Source: Pedobacter cryophilus (GTDB lineage: Bacteria > Bacteroidota > Bacteroidia > Sphingobacteriales > Sphingobacteriaceae). Taken from it: a stretch of 64,000 bases of DNA. The stretch spans positions 1 through 64,000 of the forward strand of contig NZ_SWBP01000005.1 of the NCBI RefSeq assembly GCF_005116455.1, written 5' to 3'. The notes under the pieces were generated by a model. It worked only from the letters and a program-made list of their open reading frames with translations, was not told the origin of the DNA and did not search any database. Below are positions 27,945 through 33,461 of the stretch, one piece after another. Position numbers and translations under genes: made by a program. Position 1 is the stretch's first letter. Each line of letters opens with the position of its first letter.

Positions 27945-29462
27945 ATGTTGACACTAGATTTAGCTTCTAAAGAACACGATGAGTCCAGACAAGGAGAAGC
28001 ATTAGTTTTAGATCAAAAAAAGAATAATATACATCAGCGAAAGCTATATATAGAAAGTTATGGCTGTGCTATGAATTTTGCTGATAGCGAAATTGTGGCC
28101 TCTATTTTAAGTGATGATGGTTTTATTACTACTCCAGACTATAATGAAGCCGATGTAATTTTTATCAACACCTGCTCTATCAGAGAAAATGCCGAAACCC
28201 GAGTGAGAAACAGATTGAAGCAATTTAAAGCCATTAAAAGAACCAATAAAGGTTTGGTGATTGGTGTTTTAGGGTGTATGGCCGAGCGTTTAAAGGCGAA
28301 ATTTTTAGAAGAAGAACAATTGGTGGATGTGGTAGTTGGGCCAGATGCTTACCGAGATCTTCCAAATTTAATTCAGCAGGTAAACGGAGGTCAAAAAGCC
28401 ATTAATGTTTTGCTTTCCAGAGAAGAAACTTATGCAGATGTGAGTCCGGTGAGGTTAAACTCTAACGGAATTAGTGCTTTTGTTTCTATTATGCGTGGTT
28501 GCGATAATATGTGCTCGTTTTGTGTGGTTCCTTTTACCAGAGGAAGAGAGCGTAGCCGAGATGCTGTTTCTATTGTTAAAGAAGTACAAGATCTATATAA
28601 CGAAGGCTATAAAGAAGTCACGCTTTTAGGGCAAAATGTTGATTCTTATAAGTGGGTAAGGCCTCATCCTCAATCCTTCTCCAAAGGAGAAGGAAGCGCA
28701 GGAGAAGCCCAAAACATAGCAGAGCCATCTGCAAAGAACTCCCTCTCCTTTGGAGAGGGGCGGGGTGAGGTTGTTAATTTCGCTCAATTATTAGAAATGG
28801 TGGCTTTGGTAAGTCCAGAAATTAGGGTGAGGTTTTCTACATCGCATCCAAAAGATATAACTGATGAGGTTTTGCATACCATTGCCAAATATGAGAATAT
28901 TTGCAACCATGTGCATTTGCCAGTACAATCTGGAAACTCTAGAGTTTTAGATTTAATGAACAGAACTTACGCCAGAGAATGGTATTTAAACCGGATTGAA
29001 GCAATTTGGAATATCATTCCTGAATGCAGCATTTCTACCGATATTATTTCTGGTTTTTGTACCGAAACAGAAGAAGATCACCAGGAAACTTTAAGCATGA
29101 TGGAGGTGGTGAAATATGCTTTTGCTTATATGTATTCTTATTCTGAAAGACCAGGAACGCCAGCAGCTAAAAAATTAGCTGATGATGTACCCGAAGAAGA
29201 AAAACAGCGCAGATTAGCAGAAATTATTGCTTTGCAACAGCACCATAGTTTTTTTCAGGCACAAAAAAGAGTAGGCAAAATAGAAAAAGTACTGATTGAA
29301 GGATTTTCTAAAAAGTCTAAAAGTGATTTCTGTGGAAGAAGTGATAGAAACCACATGGTAATATTCCCGGTTCAAGGAGAGCACAAACCCGGAGATTATG
29401 TAAACGTTTTGGTAGAAAAAACTACCACAGCAACATTGATAGGTAAAATAGTTTCTGTTTAG
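27945..29462 (+). CDS. miaB: tRNA-2-methylthio-N6-dimethylallyladenosine synthase MiaB
   Basis: A 505-aa radical SAM methylthiotransferase that modifies i6A37 of tRNAs reading codons starting with U. The N-terminal domain has the three cluster-binding cysteines: C41 in YGCAMN, C77 in [10 protein letters not shown] and C111 in LGCMAERLK. The radical SAM CxxxCxxC is C186-C190-C193 ([10 protein letters not shown]). A TRAM domain closes the protein (about 440-505). Between SYKW (residue 237) and VNFAQLLEM (277) lies a 35-40 residue insert encoded by a palindromic repeat that stays in frame; see the separate entry. The insert lies within the radical SAM domain, between [11 protein letters not shown] and the substrate-facing part. 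Otherwise the length and motifs are normal. Confidence 0.96.
28662..28770. repeat. Palindromic repeat element inserted in frame in miaB
   Basis: The 109-bp element starts CCTCATCCTCAATCC and ends GGGGTGAGG. It holds two perfect hairpins, CCTTCTCC-AAA-GGAGAAGG (28675-28693) and CCCTCTCC-TTT-GGAGAGGG (28741-28759), which together make it strongly GC-rich relative to its surroundings. The sequence type is commonly intergenic in Bacteroidota. Here it is translated without stops as residues about 239-276 of MiaB (SFSKGEGS ... [10 protein letters not shown]). Confidence 0.85.
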
Positions 29463-31433: not shown

Positions 31434-33461
31434 TTGAATTCAAATCAAACCGAGGCTAGTAAATTTCGTACTTATCATTCAAATCCGAATGCGTTGAGCA
31501 GTAGTGATTTGTATTTAATTAAGGAATGGATTGAAAAATATCCTTATTGCCAAAGCTTGCATTATTTGGCCTCTCGCACTGCAATAAATACTCAGGAATA
31601 TGAAAATTTTCTTACTCAGGCAGCAGCTATTGCGCCATCAAGGGCAGTTTTACATGCTGTTGTTTATGAGCCTGAACAATTTTTCACCGAGTTAAGTCTT
31701 ATTATTGAAGAGGAAGAAACTCATCATGAAACGGTTCAAACCGATCAGGATAATGCTGATAATCCTTTTGGAATAGATCTGAATCAAATTTACGGATCCG
31801 AATTTAAAGTCGAAACTACCGAGCCAGACGCTGAAGCATTAGATAAAGAAGCTGAAGAAATTCTTTTGGTAGAAGATGATGTAGAAGTTGAAATATGGAA
31901 TCCAGAGGAAGAGCAAGCAATTGCCGGGGATTTGAATTTAGACAGTGAGATTGTTTCTGAGGATTTAGGAAAGCAAACTCAGCTAGAAATAGTTGAAGAA
32001 GAAGAAGAGTTTGAAATAGCCCTTAAAGGCGAAGAACAAATAGCTTTGCTACAGGAAACCGAAATAGTTGAAAACATAGAAGCTGAGATTACCGAAGAAG
32101 TAGAGCTGGTTGAAGAAGAAGAAATAGTAGAAGACAAAGAAGTTGAGCCAGTTGAAAACATCGAGGACGAAGTTTCGATTACCGAAGAAATAGTAGAAGA
32201 AAAGGAAATAGAATCAGTTGAAAACATTGAGGACGAAGTTTCGATTACCGAAGAAACAGAATTGGTTGTTGAAGATGAAGAAATAGTAGAAGAAAAGGAA
32301 ATAGAATCAGTTGAAAACATTGAGGACGAAGTTTCGATTACCGAAGAAATAGTAGAAGAAAAGGAAATAGAATCAGTTGAAAACATTGAGGATGAGGTTT
32401 CGATTACCGAAGAAACAGAATTAGTTGTTGAAGAGGAAGAAATAGTAGAAGACACGGAAGTTGAGTCAGTTGAAAACATCCAAGACGAAGTTTCGATTAC
32501 TGAAGAAACTGAGCCAGTTGTTGAAGAGGAAGAAGTAGTAGAAGACACGGAAGTTGAGTCAGTTGAAAACATCGAGGACGAAGTTGCGATTACCGAAGAA
32601 ACTGAATTAGCTGTTGAAGAGGAAGAAATAGTAGAAGACACGGAAGTTGAGTCAGTTGAAAACATCCAGGACGAAGTTTCGATTACTGAAGAAACTGAGC
32701 CAGTTGTTGAAGAGGAAGAAGTAGTAGAAGAAAAGGAAGTTGAGCCAGTTGAAAACATCGAGGACGAAGTTGCGATTACCGAAGAAACTGAATTAGCTGT
32801 TGAAGAGGAAGAATTAACAGTTTCCGTCTCCGCAACTGAACCGATTAAAAAAGATGAATTACAATTTGATCATCCCATTCAAGCTGATTTTTTTGCTTTA
32901 AATCGTAAAGAATTAGCTAAAATAGAAGTTAAACAAGAGGAGCAAAGTGTAAGTCAGTATAACGACGAAAGGATGCCATATACATTTCTTTGGTGGTTAA
33001 ATAAAACAAGAAAAGAGCATTCTTCCAATCATCAGCCTTACAGTTCTTTTAAATTAGATACCAGCAAGCAGATAAAAAAAGCTGATCCCGACAGGTTAAA
33101 TCAGCAAATAGCAGAAAATATTTTTCATTTAAGAGGAGCAGAAGAAATATCTTCTTCATCAGCAAATTATACAGTTCCGTTTGATTTTAGAAAGAAGGAG
33201 TTTCAGATTATCGAAAAATTCATCAAAGAAGAGCCTCAAATTAAGCCTCCAACTGCAAATAAAATAGATTCAGAAAATAAAGCAAAGCGGAGTTCAGAAG
33301 ATGCAAACCAAGTAGTTTCAGAAACATTAGCTAAAATTTATGTAGAGCAAATGCTTTATCACAAAGCTTTAGATGTGTACAAAAAATTAAGTTTGAAATT
33401 TCCAGAAAAAAGCACTTACTTTGCCAGCCAAATAAAATATTTGGAATTAAAGGTTAATTAA
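31434..33461 (+). CDS. Protein with long Glu-rich tandem repeats, unknown function
   Basis: A 675-aa cytoplasmic-looking protein without signal peptide or membrane helix. The start is a TTG at 31434; no in-frame ATG occurs before the conserved-looking N-terminus (SKFRTYHSNPNALSSSDLYL, WIEKYPYCQSLHYLASR). Residues about 220-460 are eight tandem copies of a VENIEDEVSITEE-type unit. The C-terminal part, about 500-675, has a basic segment and ends with a TPR-like YVEQMLYHKALDVYKKLSLK. In Bacteroidota a gene of this type often lies between lptE and secG. The repeats are extremely acidic and probably disordered. Function is unknown. Confidence 0.8.
   Translation: MNSNQTEASKFRTYHSNPNALSSSDLYLIKEWIEKYPYCQSLHYLASRTAINTQEYENFLTQAAAIAPSRAVLHAVVYEPEQFFTELSLIIEEEETHHETVQTDQDNADNPFGIDLNQIYGSEFKVETTEPDAEALDKEAEEILLVEDDVEVEIWNPEEEQAIAGDLNLDSEIVSEDLGKQTQLEIVEEEEEFEIALKGEEQIALLQETEIVENIEAEITEEVELVEEEEIVEDKEVEPVENIEDEVSITEEIVEEKEIESVENIEDEVSITEETELVVEDEEIVEEKEIESVENIEDEVSITEEIVEEKEIESVENIEDEVSITEETELVVEEEEIVEDTEVESVENIQDEVSITEETEPVVEEEEVVEDTEVESVENIEDEVAITEETELAVEEEEIVEDTEVESVENIQDEVSITEETEPVVEEEEVVEEKEVEPVENIEDEVAITEETELAVEEEELTVSVSATEPIKKDELQFDHPIQADFFALNRKELAKIEVKQEEQSVSQYNDERMPYTFLWWLNKTRKEHSSNHQPYSSFKLDTSKQIKKADPDRLNQQIAENIFHLRGAEEISSSSANYTVPFDFRKKEFQIIEKFIKEEPQIKPPTANKIDSENKAKRSSEDANQVVSETLAKIYVEQMLYHKALDVYKKLSLKFPEKSTYFASQIKYLELKVN
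32151..32815 (+). repeat. Coding minisatellite of 66- and 93-bp units
   Basis: Eight copies of a unit starting GTTGAAAACAT encode VENI(E/Q)DEV(S/A)ITEE. Units come in two sizes, about 22 and 31 residues (66 and 93 bp), differing by an ETELVVEEE-type segment. A degenerate ninth copy precedes them near 32070. The copies differ slightly, showing expansion and homogenisation by slippage or recombination. Both unit sizes are multiples of three, so length changes keep the frame. Confidence 0.9.

Follow-up and report, generated by a model that had tools for sequence, protein, structure and literature searches.

The locus raises the question of how a palindromic repeat came to lie in frame inside miaB, what kind of element it is and how the enzyme accommodates it. 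The window (the whole 64,000-nt stretch of a Pedobacter cryophilus contig that was analysed) holds the following features.

27945..29462, + strand: miaB, tRNA methylthiotransferase of 505 aa (open reading frame, Pfam, NCBIfam TIGR01574).
28661..28706, + strand: left end, matching that of the DUF559-bearing element in this genome's LeuRS at 93.5% across 46 nt.
28662..28770, + strand: palindromic element (CCTCATCC ... GGGTGAGG), in frame, part of a 39-residue loop, replacing an 8-codon loop.
28675..28693, no strand assigned: left hairpin, CCTTCTCC-AAA-GGAGAAGG, perfect 8-bp stem.
28695-28705: inner AGCGCAGGAGA, 11 nt inside the palindrome and within the shared left end (MiaB compared with the LeuRS element).
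28739..28770, + strand: right end, matching that of the LeuRS element at 94% across 33 aligned positions.
28741..28759, no strand assigned: right hairpin, CCCTCTCC-TTT-GGAGAGGG, perfect 8-bp stem.

The open reading frame was assigned with TIGR01574 (442.9 bits; cut-off 355.3) and is the only MiaB-level match in the genome, the next-best matches being just 31-33% identical to it. The frame remains open across the insert, with no stop codon, and both 8-bp stems are perfect at 28662-28770, as the earlier note had described. The element is 109 bp long, and each of its ends is an inverted repeat of the other. The predicted RNA fold of positions 28650-28780 had an energy of -57.8 kcal/mol compared with -39.4 for shuffled sequences (z -4.7; 0/200 as low). 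The spacing from SYKW to VNFA is 39 residues. Of the 11 empty congeners, 6 have a spacing of 8 and 5 a spacing of 10 or 13; relative to the nearest empty relatives, with 8, the net gain is therefore about 31 residues. A Pfam scan of MiaB gave no domain beyond its own. In the AlphaFold model (mean pLDDT 78.7) residues 246-271 fell below a pLDDT of 50, as did residues 1-16, 155-173 and 191-200, so that low confidence is not peculiar to the insert. The nearest solved structure, 7mjv, was aligned on both flanks of the insert site and has a short loop there. Three of the six reading frames were open across the element where 1.5 were expected (P 0.17); this excess is not significant, and the suggestion that the element is open in all frames by design was dropped. 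Elsewhere in the window, at 32025-32807, a 675-aa open reading frame contains 93-nt tandem repeats, which specify an acidic repeat (VENIEDEVSITEE...).

The palindrome is a member of a dispersed family. The 3.99-Mb genome (G000) was searched using the pattern CCYTCTCCNNNGGAGARGG with one mismatch tolerated, and 22 places were found; the reversed pattern, used as a control, gave none, which excludes a chance origin. Merging of the matches gave 17 sites, of which 5 are intragenic, 5 at the ends of open reading frames and 7 intergenic (one of these possibly at an N-terminus). The description of the element as usually intergenic is thus borne out for 7 of the 17 sites and fails for the 5 inside genes and the 5 that extend the ends of reading frames. 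The intragenic sites, all in frame, are in MiaB, LeuRS, ValRS, AspRS and MetH, and the comparison with Rickettsia palindromic elements (RPEs) is a fitting one: a dispersed palindrome is read in frame inside unrelated housekeeping genes. At the ends of reading frames it was found with an ABC ATPase, at one site flanked by OTC-type and ArgB-type genes, with a Cys/Met PLP enzyme, with MurD and with a putative 240-aa frame; gene extension in this class is mostly putative. The congener G003 has 49 palindromes at 43 sites: 8 inside open reading frames and in frame (MiaB, two in LeuRS, ValRS, ArgC, MetH, AspRS and a 337-aa frame without an NCBIfam match), 15 touching the ends of frames, some of them short and putative, and 20 intergenic. 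In both genomes, therefore, the interior of genes holds a minority of the sites.

The frame in which the palindrome is read varies with the host, MiaB, LeuRS and AspRS being different. It is read as IPNPSPKEKG and APSPLERAG in LeuRS, and in AspRS as PLLWRGGGEA in G000 and SLTPVLSEGEG at the same loop in G003. The intergenic copies at C9:9685, C9:95985 and C1:279247 of G000 start at the TAG stop of the upstream frame (TAG then CCTCA), as does that at C1:725157 when judged by eye, as if the end of the element had contributed part of the stop.

Distribution of the MiaB insert in the genus is patchy, with 7 of 18 genomes filled (G000, G001, G003, G009, G010, G013 and G017) and 11 without it. On a MiaB tree made with the loop removed, presence required 5 state changes, at least 4 of them forced by well-supported branches, and the LeuRS tree (16 of the 18 genomes, G005 and G006 being left out) likewise required 5, at least 4 forced. 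Presence was not clustered (shuffles as low in 76/500 and 233/500 on the two gene trees), and a single clean gain is supported by neither tree. All seven inserts have one orientation and the same junction within a few bases, and inner sequence is common, by eye, to the pairs G010/G013, G001/G003 and G009/G017; one origin followed by loss or recombinational exchange is therefore as possible as several gains. Alignment of empty and filled alleles indicated that the filled alleles replace a 24-nt loop rather than add to it, and no target-site duplication was visible in it.

An old functional loop of MiaB that merely resembles a repeat would account for the presence of the insert at the same place and in the same orientation in six other congeners. 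It would not account for the empty genomes, among which G008 and G012 are 88-97% identical to the filled G010 and G013 in 150-nt windows around the site. Insert lengths range from 35 to 59 residues, and the frame is kept in 6 of 7 and lost in G017, where the insert has lost 1 nt at its right end (L098, G017:C22), so that MiaB is divided into two frames (284 and 240 aa); this split gene may be a pseudogene or a sequencing error. The insert also diverges faster than the enzyme, G010 and G013 being 72% identical at the protein level in the insert and 99% in the left part. The earlier note had asked whether all close orthologues are filled, with conserved residues; 11 of 18 are empty and the residues are unconserved. 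Given the empty orthologues and the fast drift, an old conserved loop is scarcely credible and was rejected. Assembly error, the other objection raised there, was also rejected and is unlikely as the insert occurs in seven separately assembled genomes, one of which (G013) is a single contig.

The role in the mRNA that had been proposed for the hairpins is unsupported: both are intact in only 2 of the 7 MiaB inserts, 4 carry a single mismatch in one of the two, and 1 has lost a hairpin. The strong predicted mRNA hairpin speaks in favour of another reading, in which the element is skipped by ribosomes or removed from the mRNA and the protein is made without it. Six of the seven inserts, however, are multiples of three and stop-free, which skipping would not demand, and 5 of the 7 have one or both hairpins imperfect or missing; this explanation is very improbable. 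We infer that the peptide specified by the MiaB insert is really made.

In a wider survey, 121 MiaB loci were collected (the window's own, 40 of 99 other genomes and the best 80 of 581), some genomes being entered twice (e.g. L102/L197); L263 had no readable site, leaving 120. The motif CTCC-N3-GGAG was present in the loop at 12 of the 120 loci: the seven genus genomes, the Mucilaginibacter records L196, L197 and L211 (with L102, which is the record of L197 again) and L209, in which the palindrome looks different. DUF559 was found in none of the 120 loops. Other sequences that appeared repeat-like by eye occupy the loop in G065, G052, G026 and L254. At L121 (G065, another family) a GTTCAAAGTTCAAAG-type repeat lies in frame at the same loop.

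Longer relatives of the element, which went beyond the earlier note as did the other, apparently unrelated repeats in the same MiaB and LeuRS loops, were found in LeuRS and further enzymes. In LeuRS of the same genome (C12:222195-222665), which is the genome's only LeuRS match, two palindromes flank an in-frame DUF559 domain (Pfam, 112-117 bits), and this element shares its ends with that in MiaB. DUF559 is presumably a nuclease of the PD-(D/E)XK/Vsr type; the LeuRS element gave a further Pfam match, below threshold, to a restriction-endonuclease-like family. Of the 18 genus genomes, 15 gave DUF559 matches, those in G001 and G011 being only weak; in the family, with weak matches counted, 185 of 301 genomes did. 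Eighty-eight loci were read, 48 being the best-scoring and 40 picked mostly for long frames, so this is not a random sample and the host counts are not frequencies. Eighty-four of these loci yielded 87 domains, and the weak-match loci L160, L161, L166 and L167 gave none. Hosts were classed by motif, one or two representatives per host being confirmed by Pfam, and two of the representatives, plus LeuRS, by NCBIfam. The domains were assigned to LeuRS (32), an IcmF-type mutase (18), a ligase-associated DEXH helicase (6), a position before HisF (9) and other or stand-alone contexts (22); the last group includes two in MetH, one in a type ISP restriction protein and one that precedes a HisF-like sequence. 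Within LeuRS, the IcmF-type mutase, the DEXH helicase and MetH the domain is in frame. A single 1240-aa LeuRS frame at L321 (G214:C58) has two DUF559 domains at different sites, and at L175 (G304:C23) three stand-alone DUF559 genes stand in tandem about 560 nt apart.

Hairpins with a stem of at least 8 and a GC content of at least half were found within 150 nt of DUF559 on the left in 44/87 and on the right in 41/87, compared with 20/987 control windows taken from these loci (odds ratio 46, p 8e-60). The motif CTCC-N3..6-GGAG alone was near DUF559 on the left in 48/87 and on the right in 37/87 (controls 21/987). Such hairpins were found beside none of the 9 DUF559-HisF fusions, and in LeuRS of G004, G006 and G015 a different palindrome stands beside DUF559. 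Short and long forms were encountered at one intergenic place, next to a gene which we take to be malate/lactate-dehydrogenase-like. Palindromes surround a stand-alone DUF559 there in G005 (an assembly 7% contaminated, with a second copy of the place on C35) and in G007, as far as the contig end shows, while G014 has only a short palindrome pair; no palindrome was found at this place in nine other genomes read, of which G000, G002, G010 and G012 keep the same signal-peptidase-like neighbour. This is the most direct sign that the short pairs and the DUF559 elements are two forms of one thing.

Across the genus the LeuRS loop is occupied by DUF559 in some genomes and by other repeat-like sequences in others, and empty alleles occur alongside them. 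In G012 and G008 (L278 and L279) a GTCCGAGGTCGG / GGACTTCGGACTT-type sequence is in frame in the LeuRS loop that holds DUF559 in relatives. Variety of this kind would be explained by passive capture, in which a permissive loop such as that of MiaB takes up any common intergenic repeat during double-strand-break repair or template switching, with no dedicated mobility enzyme. It is a serious rival, because the same loops seem to be occupied by other repeats too, for which no nuclease is needed: sequences that appear repeat-like by eye occur in the MiaB loop of other genera (G065, G052, G026, L209 and L254) and in the LeuRS loop of G008/G012, G011, G009 and G017. The association of hairpins with DUF559 far above the control, the conservation of the nuclease, and the shared orientation and nearly single junction of the seven MiaB inserts argue against it, and we regard it as rather unlikely.

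Conservation of the nuclease was assessed on 83 domains, 4 of the 87 being too short for the tree and the residue counts. The D, E, D and Q of DUF559, presumably its active-site (catalytic) residues, were retained in 83/83, and dN/dS was 0.04-0.15 in 9 of 13 pairs, the other 4 being saturated. Judged from sequence, the embedded DUF559 nucleases are under purifying selection with their presumed catalytic residues kept. The lineages group by host site, with 9 changes against 45 when shuffled (on a quick tree with few columns), which indicates that jumps to new sites are rare. Some hosts are broken. A TAA stop lies inside the DUF559 part of the HisF fusion of this genome (L162, G000:C11:379873-380187), and the DUF559-bearing LeuRS of G006 (L148 and L283, G006:C160) is split in two reading frames. 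The DUF559-HisF fusion of G017 is open, unlike that of G000.

RAYTs act on hairpin-forming dispersed repeats, and the genome has six Y1_Tnp matches; mobilization of a REP-like element in trans by a Y1 (RAYT/IS200-like) transposase of this genome was therefore considered. CTCC-N3..6-GGAG was found beside 0/6 of the Y1_Tnp genes within about 1.5 kb on each side, and the link was set aside; action in trans from a distance is still compatible with this result, and the explanation as a whole is improbable.

The MiaB insert is probably a short, nuclease-less member of a family of palindrome-ended mobile elements of the Sphingobacteriaceae, the longer members of which carry DUF559, and is tolerated as a loop. 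In these longer members a gene for DUF559, a restriction-like nuclease, lies between comparable ends. Short and long forms alike occupy in-frame loops of housekeeping enzymes and, according to the mechanism proposed, remain in the mature protein. The nuclease may cut at or near the palindrome or the empty allele, with repair from the filled copy as in homing. The MiaB insert would have entered a tolerant loop and then been translated, the host surviving because the loop tolerates the element and no stop or frameshift is present. In this mechanism DUF559 would drive the mobility of the element, and the short members would either move in trans or be deletion products. Homing driven by DUF559 would account for the conservation of the nuclease, for the patchy distribution and for the attachment of lineages to their sites. 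Against this reading stand the finding of DUF559 in none of the 120 MiaB loops, the lack of a target-site duplication, the hairpin-free HisF fusions, the different palindrome beside DUF559 in LeuRS of three genomes, the broken hosts (the HisF fusion and LeuRS of G006), the other repeat-like sequences in the MiaB and LeuRS loops, the rarity of jumps to new sites and the low AlphaFold confidence outside the insert as well as within it.

A bolder proposal, held tentatively and with less than even confidence, is that these are a new class of non-splicing homing element within proteins. Palindrome-bounded DUF559 would persist as active extra domains of essential enzymes (the only LeuRS, the IcmF-type mutase, MetH and the repair helicase), would spread through cleavage of palindromes or empty alleles, and would shed miniatures such as the MiaB insert. 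The findings suggest a DNA parasite of a kind that resides within proteins and is not spliced out of them. If this is true, a conserved DNA nuclease would ride as a passenger domain in essential enzymes, the sole LeuRS among them. No title or abstract opening among the matches listed in the open-access PMC literature described DUF559 or palindromes inside these hosts.

The short element resembles MITEs and REP/BIME sequences in being short and inverted, with paired hairpins, many intergenic copies and no gene of its own. Terminal inverted repeats without a gene, as in MITEs, are present in the MiaB element; a target-site duplication is not, the loop being replaced in the empty/filled alignment, and no RAYT gene flanked by the repeat, as expected of REPs, was seen at the six Y1_Tnp loci. 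The partner enzymes of MITEs and REPs are DDE or RAYT transposases, whereas the candidate partner here is DUF559, which is not known as a transposase.

Inteins cluster by allele, and the long members resemble the homing endonucleases of inteins and introns in having a conserved nuclease in conserved genes, site-bound lineages and patchy presence. They differ in that the mature enzyme would retain the nuclease, and homing is in this case something we infer; no splicing domain was detected by Pfam in MiaB, LeuRS or five further DUF559 hosts. Intact presumed catalytic residues are confined to the long members, the MiaB insert having no nuclease. The homing families described so far include PD-(D/E)xK and EDxHD nucleases (PMC3943268).

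Palindromic elements inside proteins are best known from Rickettsia, where, in the part of PMC10969869 consulted, RPEs are dispersed palindromes of about 150 bp in frame inside unrelated metabolic genes, and no mover is named. The element described here is likened to them by description rather than by sequence, as a 109-bp dispersed palindrome (range about 100-150 bp) in frame in unrelated genes. It belongs to another phylum, is read in several frames and stands in the place of the host loop; the same ends flank DUF559, while that part of the RPE account (PMC10969869) mentions no nuclease-bearing form. The same in-protein habit is thus found in core enzymes of a group with cultured members, and a candidate enzyme is supplied, so that the invasion of proteins by such elements becomes testable.
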